From: Anaerolineae bacterium
GTDB taxonomy: Bacteria > Chloroflexota > Anaerolineae > DRVO01
Assembly: GCA_013178015.1 (NCBI GenBank)
Contig: JABLXR010000016.1
Coordinates: 59,906 to 123,905, forward strand
Direction: 5' to 3'
Length of the DNA stretch: 64,000 nt
Shown: in pieces, positions 35,435-44,678 of the stretch
How positions within the stretch are numbered: the first letter of the stretch is position 1
Layout of the letters: every line of letters begins with the position of its first letter
The notes under the pieces: generated by a model
What the model was told of the DNA's origin: nothing
What the model saw: only the letters and a program-made list of their open reading frames with translations
Database searches by the model: none
Translations under genes and position numbers: made by a program

Positions 35435-35926
35435 TCACCGCTGCTCCTCTGGTGGAAGGGTGAGCCGCATCTCCTCGAAGGAGTAAGTGCGGTTCACGAA
35501 GTCCTTGCGGAGCGGGTGACCGGGGAAGCCCTCCCAGAGCAGGATCCGCTCCAACTTGGGATGCCCCTCAAACACGACGCCGAACAGGTCGTAGACCTCC
35601 CGCTCCTGGAAGTTGGCGCCCTCCCACACCCCCGTCACCGAGGGCAGACGCGGATCTGCCTTGTCCTCCAATCGCACCTTGAGGGCCAGAGGGGGCCCGG
35701 GATCGGCGGTGGAGTAGAGATGGTAGACGACTTCGAAGCACTCGGGCCGGTCCACCGCCGTCAGGTTGGACAACAGATCGTACCCCCGCTCGTCGCGCAG
35801 GAACCGGGCCACCTCCACCAGGTGGCCCCGGTCCAGAATCAGGGTGAAATCAATGCCCTCCGGGTGCTCCAGCACTCCCTCAGGGAAGCGCTCGCGGAGC
35901 ATGTCGAGCGTCTGCTCGTGGTTCAA
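35435..35926 (-). CDS. nuoC: NADH-quinone oxidoreductase subunit C
   Basis: A 163-aa 30-kDa homologue. Key motif EREVYDLFGVVFEGHPKLERILLWEGFPGHPLRKDF lies near residues 110-145. The reading frame is open upstream, but the gene starts at TTG 35926, with AAGGAGGAG just before it and a 4-nt TTGA overlap with the nuoB stop; nuoC is a separate gene, not fused to nuoD. Confidence 0.96.
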   Translation of the reverse strand: MNHEQTLDMLRERFPEGVLEHPEGIDFTLILDRGHLVEVARFLRDERGYDLLSNLTAVDRPECFEVVYHLYSTADPGPPLALKVRLEDKADPRLPSVTGVWEGANFQEREVYDLFGVVFEGHPKLERILLWEGFPGHPLRKDFVNRTYSFEEMRLTLPPEEQR

Positions 35927-36468
35927 GCCTGCTCCTCCTTCCGGTACCAAGACACCGTCCTGACCGACTGCTGCCCCACCATCTCGTGGAGCTTGGTGAA
36001 GGCGTAGATCAGCGCCTCCGGCCGAGGGGGGCAGCCCGGAAGGTAGATGTCCACCGGGATGAGGTCGCTGGCGCCCTGCACCACGGCGTACGACTTGAAG
36101 GTGCCTCCAGCCACGGTGCAGGTGCCCATGGCGATAGCGTACTTGGGCTCCGGCATCTGATTCCAGATGCGCAGCACCTGAGGCGCCATCTTGTGGGTGA
36201 TGGTGCCGCTCAGTATCAGCAGGTCCGCCTGCCTGGGGGAAGCGAAGGGAATGTCCATTCCCAACCGCCCGTAGTCGTAGCGCGACGCTCCCGCGGCAAT
36301 CATCTCGAGGGCGCAGCAAGCGAGGCCGAACGTGAGCGGCCACATGGAACGGCGGCGAGCCCAATTGTAGGCCGCGTCCACAGTAGTCAGCAGCACGTTG
36401 CGTCGCCAGTCCTCGGGGACCAGCGTCTCCGGAACCGTCAGGGTGTGATGCAGCTCCCGATCCGACAT
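35923..36468 (-). CDS. nuoB: NADH-quinone oxidoreductase subunit B
   Basis: The 181-aa N2 cluster subunit. Cys ligands are present in LACCALEM, GTCTVAGG and LPGCPPRPEA. Homology starts at the ATG 36468 (AAAGGG 7 nt upstream), with no need for the longer open frame. Its 3' end overlaps nuoC. Confidence 0.96.
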   Translation of the reverse strand: MSDRELHHTLTVPETLVPEDWRRNVLLTTVDAAYNWARRRSMWPLTFGLACCALEMIAAGASRYDYGRLGMDIPFASPRQADLLILSGTITHKMAPQVLRIWNQMPEPKYAIAMGTCTVAGGTFKSYAVVQGASDLIPVDIYLPGCPPRPEALIYAFTKLHEMVGQQSVRTVSWYRKEEQA

Positions 36469-36485
36469 GGCTGTGCCCTTTCCCG

Positions 36486-36845
36486 TTACACCCACCGCAA
36501 GTCGCCCTTGGCCCAGGCATAGGCCAGGCCGAAGGCCAGTATGCCGACGAAGACGAACCCCTCCAGGAGAGCGAAAAGCCCCAGGCGGTTGTAGGCCACT
36601 GCCCACGGATAGAGGAACATCGTCTCCACATCGAAGAGAACGAAGAGGAAAGCGTAGATGTAGTACTGCGCCCGGAAGCGAACCCAAGCCTGCCCCCGAG
36701 GTGTCATGCCACTCTCGTAGGTGGTGGCCTTCTCCCTAGTGGGACGCTTCGGCCTGAGGAAGTAAGCTACACTGAAGGCAAGAAAGGGAAACAAGATGGC
36801 CACCAACACGAAGACGACGAGAAAGGCGGTATTGGGGGTCACCAT
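36486..36845 (-). CDS. nuoA: NADH-quinone oxidoreductase subunit A
   Basis: A 119-aa subunit with three TM helices; YESGMTPRGQAWVRFRAQYYI and the acidic FLVFDVETMFLYPWA segment (present as LFDVETMFLYPWA) are conserved. It starts the operon at 36845; the nuo promoter at 36885 precedes it. Confidence 0.94.
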   Translation of the reverse strand: MVTPNTAFLVVFVLVAILFPFLAFSVAYFLRPKRPTREKATTYESGMTPRGQAWVRFRAQYYIYAFLFVLFDVETMFLYPWAVAYNRLGLFALLEGFVFVGILAFGLAYAWAKGDLRWV

Positions 36846-38964: not shown

Positions 38965-40965
38965 TCAGCCCTGATCGCCATCGTCTCCAGTGACCGGGTC
39001 GGCGGTCGGGGTCGGTGGCTCGGGCGTCGGAGTGAGAGGCACGGGCGTATCTGTCGGCGGCACCGGAGTAGGCGTCGGCGGCTCGGGTGTGGGTGTGGGC
39101 GGCACCGGAGTAGGCGTCGGCGGCTCGGGTGTGGGTGTGGGCGGCTCGGGCGTAGGCGTCGGTGGGGCCGGCGTCTCGGTCGGGGGTACCGGCGTGGGCG
39201 TCGGAGGCACCGGCGTCTCAGTGGGTGGCACCGGTGTATCAGAGGGTGGAACCAGGGTAGGCGTGGGCGGCACAGGGGTGTCCGTCGACGGGACCGCAGT
39301 GGGCGTGGGGGTCCCGGTGGGCGTGGGCGAGGCCGCTTGGGTGGGCATCGGCGTGGAGGTCGGCGTCGCGGAAGGCGGCTCGGGCGCCGGAGTGGCCGTC
39401 GGGACGGGCGTGGCCGTGGCCTCGGGCGTCGCCGTCGGCTCCACCGTGGGCACCGGCTCCGGCGTGGGCGAGGGCACCGTCGTGGCGGTCGGAGTAGGCA
39501 GGGGCGGCGCCTCCCCGGGAGTGGGTGTGGGCGTCTCCCAATCGGCAACCGGTGTCTGGGTCGCCGTCGCCGTCTCGGCGGAGGTCGGCTCGGTCACGGG
39601 CGTGTCCGTTGCCAGCACTGGCTCGGTAGGCGTCGGCTCGAGCGTCGCCGTAGCCGTCGGCTCCTCGGTGGGAACCTCCGCCGGCTCGGTGGCCGTGGGA
39701 GCGGGCAGCGTCTCGGTCGCGGTAGGCGCGACCGTGGCTGTGGGCGGAGACTGGGCGCCGGCGGGAAGGGGCAGGAGTTCGAACGTCAGCGGACCGAGCA
39801 GGTTATTGCCCCGGCTGACCTCCTCTATCTCCTCCACTTCGAGCCACGGGGCGTTGACCAGCACCCAGATCGTGTGACTCCCGGGCGCCAGCAGCACTTG
39901 CCCCCCATCCTCCGGTAGGAGCGCAGTGGCCCCGGCGTCGGAGTCGCCGTGCAGTACCAGCCGGGCCCGCGCACCGGCCTCCAGCCCAGGCACCAGCCAG
40001 TAGGCCGAGGGCGCGTCCGAGGGCGCGGGGGGCTGGGCCAGGTCGAAGTACACCGCCACCCCGAATCCGACGGCAGCGCCTGGACCGCCGTTGGCGATCG
40101 TCAGCTCCAGGTCCACCTCCCACCCTTCAGCCTGCGCCTCCAGAGGGCGGACGAAGGCCCGGGAGGGCCTCAGGTCGGGCAGGGGCGCCGGCACGGTGGG
40201 CTCGACCTCCTGCGGCGTCGGCACGGCGGTGTCAGTGATGCCGACCGTCGGGGAGGCCGGGGCAGGCTCGGCAGTCCCTTCGGGCGCCGCCGTCTCGGTG
40301 GCCTCACGCGTGGGCGTGGGGGTGGCGGTGGGCACCGGCGTCGGCGTGGGTGTGGCTGCGACCGTGGCAGTGGGGGCGGTGTCGAGCTCCGGCGCTGCGC
40401 CGGCCTCGGGATCGACGAGCCTGACCGTGTCCCTGCCGGCGAAGGGCCGGCCGTCCACCAGCCCCGAGACGGTGAAGACGACGTCCGCCGGAGGTTGGAT
40501 GTCCGCCACCAGGCCGATCACCGCCGCCCGGTCGAAGGTGACCTTGAGGTCGGGGATGCCGTCCTTGTCGGCGTCGCCCACCTTAGGCTTGCCCCCGCCG
40601 GGAAGACCGTCGGGAGGCACACATCCGCCAGCGAAGGGCTCCTGGAGGCAGAGAAGGAGGGTGGTCACGTCTATCTGGGCCACGTCGTGCTCTGGCGGGA
40701 GCTCGATGAAGGCGGTGACGGGGGAGCCCTGGCTCTTCTTCTCCAGCGACTCGGGCTTGAGGTCGAGGTCGGCGGCGATGGCGGTGGGTTCGGGTGTGGC
40801 GGTGGGAGTGCATGCAGGAGTGGATGTCGCGGTAGGCAGCTGTACCGTCACATCAATGACGAACGCCTGGATGCAGCCGCCATTCACCGCAAGCGAGGCG
40901 GCCGATGCCGTGACTGCGGTCATGGCCATCACGAACAGCAGGACGGCCGCCAGACGCCGGAGCAC
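38965..40965 (-). CDS. Large secreted Pro/Thr-rich protein with CARDB-like domain
   Basis: A 666-aa protein in four parts: a signal peptide (cleavage near TASA-AS, residue 22); a domain at residues ~63-187 with a calcium-like loop DADKDGIPD; a TPTPxP linker; a CARDB-like beta domain (~262-400: [35 protein letters not shown]); and a ~265-residue [14 protein letters not shown] tail. No sortase or TM anchor is seen. After cleavage the mature protein begins [12 protein letters not shown], like the small secreted protein at 42769. It starts 3 bp after the signal peptidase gene, so it is co-transcribed. Confidence 0.7.
38968..39756. repeat. Coding low-complexity tandem repeat (PTPTPEPP)
   Basis: The 3' ~790 bp of the preceding gene encodes 8-10-residue Pro/Thr periods; DNA copies around 39000-39260 are nearly identical 30-36-bp units such as GGCGTCGGCGGCTCGGG. 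Slippage variation is likely. Confidence 0.7.
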
Positions 40966-40968
40966 AGC

Positions 40969-42678
40969 CTAGCTCCTCTGCGACACGCGAGGCACCTCGT
41001 ACGTGTACACTACCTGGCCGTAGTGCACGAAGAAGAGATCACGCCCCGCCTCCACCAACTCGCACATGACCTGTCCGTCCCTCTCGGCAAGACGAGCGAG
41101 GTCCGCGATGCTGGCCATCCGGATGTGGCGGGCCCCACCGAAATCGGCCGACGACGCCTCGACGAGCAAGGAGCGATACCGGGCGCGGGCTCTGTCTGCC
41201 TCCGACAGCCCTAAGCCTCCGTACACAATCGCTGCCAACAGAGCGGAGAGCGCCCCCGTCACCCCCGCCCCCAGCTGAGAGAGACGGCGGAGATCGCCCA
41301 CCGGGGCCGAGAACCCGACGGCGCGCACCTCGGCCTCGCGTACCACCTGCTCGGCCTCGGTCTGCGCCTCCGAACGTTCTAGCCCAGGGTCAAGGGTGAT
41401 CTTGGTATCGGTCAGCTGCATGGTGAATGGGGGAGAGAACACCGTCTCAAATCGTCGCTCGCCTGCAATTCCCTCCACGCGCACAGTAGGGACGATGCGG
41501 ATTTGGTGGCTGCCCACACGAACGCCCGTCTCCGCTTCGACGGTCTGGATGAAAGAGATGATATCTGGGAAACTCACAGACAGATGAGCGTCAGCCGTGG
41601 TCCCGCCAAAAGGTTGGGGTGGCATCAGCTCGAACGTCTTGGTCCATGCCTCGCCCGACGCGATTTCCATGACAGCACCGATCTCACCTGACGCTTCTGT
41701 GTCACCGGTTGACCGGAGTTGATAGGAGAAGCGTAGATCGAGGATCTGGGCCAAGCGTGTTAGGACGGTATTCCCGGCCGCTCTCGTGTCAGGCGGGCTG
41801 TCCGGCCCCACTGGCCCAATGAGACCAGACGGGTACAGAGAGGACGAAGCCGTGCGGATGCTGTACGTGAAGGTACCCGTGTTCTCGTAGCGCAGTAGCA
41901 CGACGTTGTCCGTTCTAGTGAGCGGCTGGCGGTAGCTGTACACGCATAGGGAAGCCAAGCCCAGGGTGAGCAGACCGGCGCACACGAGCAACACCCGCGC
42001 TGTACGAAGGGCCACATGTGAGCGACGAGGGCCACGCTCTCTGGAGGTGAGCGTCGCGCTGTACCCCGCAGCTACGGAATGCCTCGACGGCGCTCCCCGC
42101 GATTCGCCCTCGGTTCCTGCATCGAGCTCTGTCACTTCGGCGTGCCCCCTCACTCTCTCGTCCGACCCGCCCGCGCCGTCCCCGGCGCGGCGTGCCAGCC
42201 ACCGGCGACCCCGTGCCCTGCGGCGCGTGCCTTCCTCGGTGACAGCGATGCCGACCAGCAGCGCGAACAGCCCGGCGTTGAGGGGCTTGCCGAGAAAGGC
42301 GAGAACGCGACCTGCCCGTGGAATGCGCAGCCACATGGCCCCAGAGATGTTCTCCGGCTTGGGTCGCCACGGGTCCGGGCTCTCCTTGTTGTCTCCCTGA
42401 GTGATATACCCTTCGTCCGCCGAGCCACCGACTATCCGGTGGATGACCTGGCCGCCCTGAACGGCAAAGCCGATCACGTCACCGTGTTCGTACGTCGCGT
42501 GTCGGTGCAGGACGGCCAGGTCGCCAGAGTGCAGCGCGGGCTCCATGCTGATCCCGGACACTATGACATAGCTCGTTGACCCGCCGAGTGCCGCCGGTCT
42601 CATCCAGACTACACAGACGGCGCCCAGAGCCACCGTAAGGGCACATAGTAGTCGCACGGGACGACTCTGATGCCGCAT
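40969..42678 (-). CDS. S26B signal peptidase fused to a DUF5305-like ectodomain
   Basis: A 569-aa membrane protein. N-terminal peptidase: TM helix, then SGISMEPALHSGD with catalytic Ser44, VIHRIVG with His80 in place of the bacterial Lys (SipW/archaeal/ER type), and TQGDNKESPDP with Asp96. A TM follows, then a basic, low-complexity linker, a second TM pair at about 200-225, and an exterior region resembling DUF5305 (FTYSIRTAS, WTKTFELMPPQPFGG, ETGVRVGSHQIRIVPTVRV). A cytoplasmic C-terminal part ends the protein. ATG 42678 is chosen; the open frame from GTG 42717 lies inside a hairpin. Confidence 0.75.
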   Translation of the reverse strand: MRHQSRPVRLLCALTVALGAVCVVWMRPAALGGSTSYVIVSGISMEPALHSGDLAVLHRHATYEHGDVIGFAVQGGQVIHRIVGGSADEGYITQGDNKESPDPWRPKPENISGAMWLRIPRAGRVLAFLGKPLNAGLFALLVGIAVTEEGTRRRARGRRWLARRAGDGAGGSDERVRGHAEVTELDAGTEGESRGAPSRHSVAAGYSATLTSRERGPRRSHVALRTARVLLVCAGLLTLGLASLCVYSYRQPLTRTDNVVLLRYENTGTFTYSIRTASSSLYPSGLIGPVGPDSPPDTRAAGNTVLTRLAQILDLRFSYQLRSTGDTEASGEIGAVMEIASGEAWTKTFELMPPQPFGGTTADAHLSVSFPDIISFIQTVEAETGVRVGSHQIRIVPTVRVEGIAGERRFETVFSPPFTMQLTDTKITLDPGLERSEAQTEAEQVVREAEVRAVGFSAPVGDLRRLSQLGAGVTGALSALLAAIVYGGLGLSEADRARARYRSLLVEASSADFGGARHIRMASIADLARLAERDGQVMCELVEAGRDLFFVHYGQVVYTYEVPRVSQRS

Positions 42679-42700
42679 TCCCCTCACTGCCACGCGTTCG

Positions 42701-42744
42701 CCCTGGGCCTCTCGCACCAGGTGCGCGGTGTCAGAGGCCCAGGG
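42701..42744 (-). promoter_or_regulatory. Intercistronic stem-loop before the signal peptidase gene
   Basis: A 12-bp perfect stem CCCTGGGCCTCT (42701-42712) and AGAGGCCCAGGG (42733-42744), with an inner CGCAC-CAG-GTGCG hairpin (42713-42725). No T-run follows, so it probably attenuates read-through or protects the upstream mRNA. Confidence 0.6.
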
Positions 42745-42768
42745 GCTACTGCACTCGTCAGCTCGAGC

Positions 42769-43233
42769 TCAGTGTTCACCCTCGATGTATAGCTCGATGC
42801 CGTAGATCGCCTGTGCGGGTACGCCGTGACCGCCAGAGACGTTGACCCCATTTGCGTCTGTCGGAGCAAGCTCTAGCTTGACCGTGCCCCCGCCGTCGGG
42901 GATGACGTATGCAGCCGGCACCACAGGAGCACCGCCATTCGTAAGGTTACCATTGGTACCGATCATCTGGCCGGTATCGCCCTCAATGCGGGCGACCATC
43001 CGGTTGCCGGCACACGCCGCATCGACGCCGTACACCTGGATTGAGGTAACAATGCCGTCATAGTTGACATTCCAGCTGACTGTCACCCCGTCATGATCGC
43101 AGACGAGCGCTGTGTCAGCCCCTGCCTGCACGGAACCACCTCCAACGCCCAGGTTGGCCGCTGAGGCGAAGGTGGCGCCCACTAGGACGGCCACAACCAC
43201 GACTAGAGATACAAGCCTGATAAGCCTAGACAT
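42769..43233 (-). CDS. Small secreted protein (SipW-dependent substrate-like)
   Basis: A 154-aa exported protein with no named family that I recognise. The signal peptide SLVVVVAVLVGATFASA ends at about residue 25; the mature N-terminus ANLGVGGGSVQAG parallels the Pro/Thr-rich protein at 38965. The mature domain (~130 aa) appears beta-rich with two Cys pairs possible. ATG 43233 has GGAGG about 5 nt upstream; the longer frame from 43422 has no support. As the first gene, with the strongest RBS, it is likely the major product (inference). Confidence 0.75.
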   Translation of the reverse strand: MSRLIRLVSLVVVVAVLVGATFASAANLGVGGGSVQAGADTALVCDHDGVTVSWNVNYDGIVTSIQVYGVDAACAGNRMVARIEGDTGQMIGTNGNLTNGGAPVVPAAYVIPDGGGTVKLELAPTDANGVNVSGGHGVPAQAIYGIELYIEGEH

Positions 43234-43630: not shown

Positions 43631-43697
43631 ATACTACTGTATCACCTGAACGTCTTCAATACCTTACGAGCCCCAATGCATTAGAGAATCCTTAGAA
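43631..43697 (-). promoter_or_regulatory. Candidate promoter plus direct-repeat operator for the secretion operon
   Basis: On the minus strand, from the upstream end: TTCTAA-GGATT-CTCTAA (43697-43681), 21 bp, TTGAAG (43659-43654), 17-bp spacer, TAGTAT (43636-43631). The half-sites are 11 bp apart, one helical turn, as for OmpR-family regulators. The operator lies inside the 3' end of the regulator gene. Confidence 0.45.
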
Positions 43698-44386
43698 AAC
43701 CCCCCAGTTGGGCCGGCCTGGAATACGTATCCCCACTTCTTGCGCGTAAGTATGTACCGGGGGTGTGTCGGGTCCGGTTCCACCTTGTGCCGCAGATAGT
43801 GAACGTAGAGGTGCAGCCTACCGGCCAACTTCCTGTCCGCCGTGCCCCAAGTGGCCCGAAGCAGCTCGTCCGACAACACGATCTCTCCCGCACGCTGCAT
43901 CAGCGCCCCCAGCAGGCGCGTCTCGGTGGCCGTTAGCGCGCTGATCCTGCCGTTCACCGCTACCCTCCGCGCCGGCAGGTCCACCGTCACCACCCCGTCC
44001 GCGTATCGCGTCCTCCAGGGGTGGCCCCCCTTCACCCGGCGAACCAGGGCCTCCACGTGAGCGCGCAGGAGAGCGGGGCCGAACGGCCACACCAGCTGCT
44101 GGTCTGCCGCAGGCGATGGCCCCGAGCCGTGACCCTGTTCGGAACTCCGGCGCAGCAGCACCAGGAGAGGAACGTCACTGCCCTGGCGGATGCGGTCGCA
44201 GAGGCGCGAAGCATCCACCCCACCGTCGAGGAGATCTAGGATGACCACGTCGGGCTCGGCTCCGGCGAGATGCCGGCCGAGCTCCTCTAGAGAGCGGAAT
44301 TCTACTTCATGCGGACACTGAACCAGCCAACTACCGAGCACGTGCGCCCGGGCCTGATCGGCCCCGGCCAAGACAATCCCCGCCAT
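43664..44386 (-). CDS. OmpR-family winged-helix response regulator with degenerate receiver
   Basis: A 240-aa protein. The N-terminal domain resembles a receiver: VVILDLLDGG holds a candidate Asp51, but the acidic pair at the start is reduced and the conserved Lys-Pro is Trp-Pro, so phosphorylation is doubtful. The C-terminal wHTH (about residues 145-230) has the OmpR/PhoB pattern ALTATETRLLGALMQRAG, KLAGRLHLYVHYLRHKVEP and RYILTRKKWGYVF. ATG 44386 has GAGGAG 6 nt upstream. No adjacent histidine kinase; the neighbouring secretion operon has a matching operator. Confidence 0.82.
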   Translation of the reverse strand: MAGIVLAGADQARAHVLGSWLVQCPHEVEFRSLEELGRHLAGAEPDVVILDLLDGGVDASRLCDRIRQGSDVPLLVLLRRSSEQGHGSGPSPAADQQLVWPFGPALLRAHVEALVRRVKGGHPWRTRYADGVVTVDLPARRVAVNGRISALTATETRLLGALMQRAGEIVLSDELLRATWGTADRKLAGRLHLYVHYLRHKVEPDPTHPRYILTRKKWGYVFQAGPTGGFSKDSLMHWGS

Positions 44387-44611
44387 GCCAGGCTCCTCTA
44401 CTTCAGCAGACGCGCCACAGGTGCACGCATGAGCGCACTCGCGAGAGAGCGCGGGCTTCCGCCGCTCCCTGCGACTGATGGGCCGCGCCAGCAACGACGA
44501 AGAGGCTTCGTGCGAGGGGTAGACCGTCGGTGTCCGGCCAGCGATCAGGAGCGCCGGATCCTGCTGAAGGCGCCCCCAGACCCGCCTTCGTCCCCAGCTT
44601 CCCGAAAGCCA

Positions 44612-44678
44612 AGTGTACTCCAAGCTTACTCGAATGCAAGCACCTCAGGGCCACGAAAGTGTTAGAACTTCGTTAGAA
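44612..44678 (-). promoter_or_regulatory. Candidate promoter plus operator of the regulator gene
   Basis: On the minus strand: TTCTAA-CGAAG-TTCTAA (44678-44662), 22 bp, TTGCAT (44639-44634), 16 bp, TACACT (44617-44612). Total span from operator start to end of -10 is 67 bp, as at 43631-43697. It lies about 230 nt before ATG 44386. The rest of the 525-bp gap 44387-44911 holds a CCTATAACCTGTAACCTG-type microrepeat near 44870 and nothing else. Confidence 0.45.

Follow-up and report, generated by a model that had tools for sequence, protein, structure and literature searches.

The stretch of DNA analysed here (the window) comprises 64,000 nucleotides of contig JABLXR010000016.1 of an Anaerolineae bacterium; on its minus strand, a gene for an S26B signal peptidase lies between the genes of two secreted proteins, named U and D. 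We conclude that the three genes represent a novel version of the matrix-fibre systems known from SipW and TasA. In the preferred reading, to which a probability of about 0.55 was assigned, they form a dedicated secretion-and-assembly module, in which the peptidase with its fused DUF5305 domain (S26B-DUF5305) would free an N-terminal tail shared by U and D, U would assemble into a donor-strand fibre and D would act as its partner.

Gene organisation and shared signature of U and D

The features of the module were located as follows (positions of the window).

42769..43233, minus strand: U, small secreted protein of 154 amino acids (aa), with signal peptide, conserved mature N-terminal tail and small beta domain
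43123..43167, minus strand: signature in U, ASAANLGVGGGSVQA, covering the AxA site of predicted cleavage plus the first ~12 mature residues
40969..42678 (from ATG), minus strand: S26B (SipW/archaeal-type) signal peptidase with fused DUF5305 ectodomain
40999..41646, minus strand: DUF5305 (PF17231) match within the peptidase gene
38965..40965, minus strand: D, second secreted protein of 666 aa, Pro/Thr-rich
40864..40908, minus strand: signature in D
43664..44623, minus strand: upstream of U, orphan regulator of the OmpR type with a winged-helix domain (PF00486), its receiver domain scoring below cut-off

The order of transcription on the minus strand was OmpR-type regulator, U, S26B-DUF5305 peptidase and D. 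The U frame ran from an ATG at 43233, with a good ribosome site ahead of it, to a stop at 42769, while D began with GTG only 3 bases past the stop of the peptidase gene. An alternative GTG start of the peptidase was found at 42717.

Around the predicted cleavage site, 10 of 15 residues were identical between U and D, as a first-pass annotation of the sequence had claimed. The two signatures scored 48 against each other in an ungapped BLOSUM62 comparison, and no other 15-mer of the window, translated in six frames, scored above 34. None of 921,249 15-mers from 66 loci scored as high, and the runners-up (45 and 36) were small proteins of genome G370 encoded beside its own S26B gene. A relaxed DNA pattern, [AG]xAAxLxVxGGxxQA, which had been loosened to take in G370, gave four matches in 395 Chloroflexota genomes, two in the window and two in G370. 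All four were at S26B-DUF5305 genes, so that the signature was not widespread away from the peptidase, whereas wide occurrence without it was the outcome that the annotation had named as refuting its reading; the reversed pattern, used as a control, gave three scattered matches in the same genomes. A chance origin of the signature was rejected on the basis of the 15-mer scoring together with the pattern search.

Recurrence in Chloroflexota

S26B genes were searched for in 400 Chloroflexota genomes and found in 116, from which 60 neighbourhoods were taken in addition to earlier ones; apart from one informative contig scan, described below, all searches covered Chloroflexota, and the relatives named here are metagenome-assembled. 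The order U, S26B with a long C-terminal extension, D was observed in 24 loci besides the window. In most of them U started with AAxNTVPxTxAGDG and D with AxTNTVPxTR, giving a common AxNTVPxT tail, and in the rest both had drifted away. D of these 24 loci was short and, in place of the Pro/Thr-rich body, bore RTX-type repeats; PF00353 was matched by the single D protein scanned, and the remaining ones look similar. In a sister group, whose peptidases lack the long extension, two or three U proteins in tandem (AASLNLTSDSLGAG), often together with a CBM96 protein (identified as PF24517 in locus L130), preceded the peptidase.

Profiles of both U types were run against the 400 genomes. With the window-type profile, 23 of 27 matches lay within 3 kb of an S26B gene on the same strand, or 25 of 27 when two matches adjoining an S26B gene cut by a contig end were counted; with the NTVP-type profile the figure was 31 of 34. 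The chance expectation of such proximity was ~0.3% per match. Since S26B loci had supplied many of the matches as training sequences, the matches away from S26B, five in all 400 genomes, are the more honest measure. In a search with window U alone, which is free of this circularity, the matches in G370, G021, G320, G278 and G147 also lay beside S26B. A first scan of genome contigs with a single small protein gave no matches. The informative contig scan yielded nine loci, all from Chloroflexota or Ca. Dormibacterota and several of them on contigs already sampled, a result that leaves room for other phyla. Two U-like domains (L150, 5374-6066, and L151, 6667-7377) were observed away from any S26B found and without the usual tail, and may be U domains reused elsewhere.

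Identity, lineage and dedication of the peptidase

The window peptidase matched the archaeal-type signal peptidase model TIGR02228 with 60.9 bits (cut-off 51.85) and DUF5305 (PF17231) with 61 bits (cut-off 29), the latter being the sole PF17231 match in the genome. Numbered from the ATG start, it contained Ser44, His80 and GDN95. The annotation's view of an S26B peptidase (Ser44/His80) lying between two secreted proteins and fused to a DUF5305-like ectodomain was thereby borne out by coordinates, model scores and numbering. The catalytic Ser, the His (in place of Lys) and the GDN/D stretch were invariant over 35 related peptidases, and DUF5305 matched 28 of the 35 (E up to 0.001). The SipW equivalog model NF046067 was not reached (30.4 bits versus a cut-off of 190), and the enzyme is therefore an S26B peptidase but not SipW itself. 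Four transmembrane-like segments (residues 8-26, 128-146, 229-247 and 473-491) suggest a topology in which the peptidase domain and DUF5305 are outside and the C-terminus is cytoplasmic.

A tree of 66 S26B domains was split into 38 and 28 (support 91/86). The larger side held every peptidase adjoining U/D-type substrates as well as two with other neighbours, and the 28 on the other side adjoined TasA-like or other proteins. The nearest relative of the window enzyme was the G370 peptidase (46% identity). A single origin of the DUF5305 fusion is not claimed, since several forks were open within the larger side.

DUF5305 also occurred in other arrangements. Two peptidases of different families (L104:2225-4735 and L106:4009-6417) carried S26B, DUF5305 and, after the latter, a full EAL domain of the c-di-GMP (cyclic di-GMP) phosphodiesterase type in one protein. 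This fusion suggests control by c-di-GMP, which is typical of matrix systems, and points to a biofilm matrix. In L078 (4-1650), DUF5305 was a separate gene adjoining S26B, and a similarly built membrane protein stood separately by S26B in L109 (7088-8455); this suggests that the fusion and the separate genes are equivalent in function. A search of the open-licence literature found no paper naming DUF5305, for which a likely function is offered below.

Contigs 2 and 10 of the genome (4.57 Mb, 95% complete) each encoded a PF10502 type I signal peptidase, and contig 22 encoded a second S26B. The latter followed a classic TasA-type protein (GVAYALWTDTLEVSGTVNTGEV), which passed the SipW-cognate model TIGR04088 with 21.6 bits (cut-off 19) and served as the positive control. 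This locus (L038, 4276-6388 of contig 22 of genome G000) was a standard SipW/TasA-type pair, i.e. the TIGR04088-positive secreted protein and then a 411-codon S26B frame. A standard SipW/TasA pair and the different U/D module thus coexist in one genome. Because two ordinary signal peptidases and a separate S26B with a TasA-type substrate were present, the window S26B-DUF5305 is regarded as dedicated; that it is the general signal peptidase, or the only one, which the annotation had named as a refuting outcome, was rejected on the same grounds.

Conservation and predicted structure of U

The best-conserved part of U was its first 22 mature residues, with 2.67 versus 2.15 and 2.00 versus 1.28 bits per residue in the two U families. 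Two cysteines, located in the beta domain, were invariant within the U family. No Pfam family was matched by U in the family scans. Comparison of the profiles of the two U types gave an end-to-end alignment (P 4.5e-4, with a probability of only 33%), and a common descent of the two, as judged from sequence, is plausible.

AlphaFold predicted mature window U as a small beta domain with a core at 75-85 in the predicted local distance difference test (pLDDT; overall 64.8, predicted template modelling score 0.62), in which residues 1-9 and 11-18 were below 50. Mature U of L111 was modelled with a pLDDT of 76.8 and a six-strand core of 78-91 (mostly 84-91), residues 1-19 again being below 50. A tail conserved in sequence yet loose in the modelled monomer, and placed ahead of a small beta domain, has the look of a donor strand; any binding tail would look the same.

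Proposed mechanism and alternatives

The results above show the order of the genes, the signature, its conservation and the distinct lineage of the peptidase; the course of events that we infer includes cleavage by S26B-DUF5305, strand exchange, a fibre and roles for DUF5305 and c-di-GMP. Judging from their signal peptides, U and D would be exported through Sec. Their near-exclusive co-localisation with S26B and the matching peptidase lineage suggest that both would be cut by the adjoining S26B peptidase, and processing of U and D by a dedicated peptidase is very likely on this genomic evidence. Cleavage would expose the conserved mature N-terminal tail common to both. The tail of U, the proposed major fibre subunit, could then slot as a donor strand into the incomplete beta sandwich of a following U, giving a thin surface or matrix fibre; by analogy, such assembly is plausible but short of proof, as the searches returned no structural match to TasA. 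In D, this tail would be joined to an unrelated body (Pro/Thr-rich in the window, RTX or CBM96 in other loci), so that D, the proposed minor subunit, initiator or adaptor, might play the part that TapA plays for TasA by starting, capping or decorating the fibre. The roles of U as fibre subunit and of D as strand-hooked partner are proposed because the module shares the logic of tapA-sipW-tasA. The DUF5305 ectodomain, more speculatively, probably holds the subunits at the site of release.

Several observations weigh against this mechanism. U and D of the window gave no match to TIGR04088 at E up to 1 (cut-off 19 bits), and mature U, at ~95-130 aa, is half the size of TasA. In Foldseek searches of both U models against the PDB, the best E values were 0.21 and 0.15, with neither TasA nor a pilin among the hits listed, and a PDB sequence search with U gave no match below E 0.03 and no TasA among the hits. 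The model of window U was of medium quality only, and the low pLDDT of the tail may reflect mere flexibility. The surface-matrix or pilus-like export system suggested by the annotation is still the best reading, but a conditional one, a confident match of the predicted fold to a solved pilin not having been obtained.

A wider form of the proposal is put forward tentatively, as possible but rather improbable. In it, Chloroflexota would possess an undescribed class of donor-strand fibres, in which a common N-terminal plug hooks unrelated bodies (RTX, CBM96 or Pro/Thr) onto a fibre of small subunits, cleavage and assembly both take place at S26B-DUF5305, and some lineages are under direct c-di-GMP control via the fused EAL domain.

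The signature might instead be no more than the recognition sequence of S26B, with U and D being separate soluble or surface proteins that form no joint polymer. The common stretch begins at the cleavage site and only ~10-15 residues are common to D and U, and the class of motif tracks the lineage of the peptidase, all of which would fit such a processing module. Known type I signal peptidases, however, read mainly positions -3 and -1, whereas the conservation of U extends to about +20. In addition, the corresponding stretch of TasA and TapA is the donor strand, and a peptidase accompanied by one small beta protein and one variable protein follows the pattern of tasA-sipW-tapA. Processing without assembly is for these reasons considered unlikely.

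It is quite unlikely that U subunits contact one another laterally to form a sheet or a coat on the cell wall, for which D would provide the anchor or a glycan- or calcium-binding layer and the tail would serve for anchoring instead of strand exchange. A coat of this kind would be consistent with D proteins bearing RTX-type calcium repeats, CBM96 or long Pro/Thr stalks, and with U being small and often duplicated in tandem, but coats held by lateral contacts need no common tail, and family scans of U and D recognised no SLH, sortase or lipid-anchor feature.

The similarity of U and D tails within a locus (30.9) was hardly above that between close relatives (29.6-30.1), i.e. it follows lineage. 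Pair-by-pair covariation of the tails gave p ~5e-5 by permutation, but cross pairs between loci whose peptidases were at least 50% identical scored almost as high, and pairwise coevolution of U and D beyond shared lineage was accordingly rejected. Dependence on lineage would be compatible with a resemblance due to chance or inheritance, the N-termini deriving from one ancestral secreted protein or being alike merely as signal peptides, but this is highly improbable: the bodies are unrelated (beta domain versus RTX, CBM96 or Pro/Thr), yet the tails were alike in most of the 25 loci; the similarity sat after the hydrophobic core; U scored a mean of 0.5 against shuffled D tails versus 26.2 observed; and the NTV motif, although picked after inspection of the loci, occurred in 37 of 160 signal-bearing open reading frames (ORFs) near S26B and in 0 of 103 elsewhere.

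If the donor-strand reading is true, TasA-like matrix assembly would extend to Chloroflexota, a large phylum that is mostly uncultured, and the mature N-terminal tail would be a code naming the peptidase and the fibre of a secreted protein. The U proteins, small proteins of Chloroflexota that had no group name, are tied to a dedicated peptidase.

Neighbouring genes

The OmpR-type gene upstream of U is a candidate regulator only; in G370 (L039), a relative was found upstream of both U genes. A secreted cohesin-domain protein (PF00963; 37429-38559, minus strand) with a Pro/Thr-rich stretch and a C-terminal membrane segment was encoded ~400 bases downstream of D. It is probably not a member of the module, because no relative was present in the other S26B loci. 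Directly downstream lay Complex I genes (~35435-36845, minus strand), with the 30-kDa subunit (PF00329) in ORF 35435-36631 and neighbouring frames that read like NuoB and NuoA.

Comparison with known systems

Archaeal threads (Saci_0406) are reported to consist of secreted beta-sandwich subunits joined by an N-terminal donor strand after removal of the signal peptide (PMC9715654), and the same is reported of archaeal bundling pili. Unlike the Chloroflexota module, these systems gave no sequence or confident fold match to U, and the parts of the sources at hand describe no DUF5305-fused peptidase.

With the TIGR02228 and MEROPS S26B signal peptidases, the window enzyme shares a model score above cut-off and invariant catalytic residues. 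It differs from them in being extended at the C-terminus by DUF5305 and two additional membrane segments, to which EAL is added in two relatives.

A close parallel is offered by the camelysin operons and by tapA-sipW-tasA of Bacillus subtilis. In the latter, SipW cuts TasA and TapA, TapA starts the fibre and the N-terminus of TasA is the donor strand (PMC9674648, PMC10151520); mature TasA begins with AFNDI and mature TapA with AFHDI, which are nearly equal (PMC10151520). The annotation had cited TasA and TapA as a precedent for a dedicated peptidase with its substrates, and this part stood. Its statement that those substrates do not resemble the present ones understates the parallel, since the two Bacillus N-termini are themselves near-identical. 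In both systems, a dedicated S26B lies by a small beta major subunit and a minor partner with a near-identical mature N-terminus, and tight gene coupling and a matrix context are likewise common to the two (PMC9674648, PMC10151520). In contrast, the window-type substrates belong to different families of about half the size and miss TIGR04088, the model passed by the genome's own contig-22 protein. Furthermore, the Chloroflexota tail reads AxLxVxGG or AxNTVPxT and not A-F-x-D, the peptidase is fused to DUF5305, and the partner protein carries RTX, CBM96 or Pro/Thr repeats.

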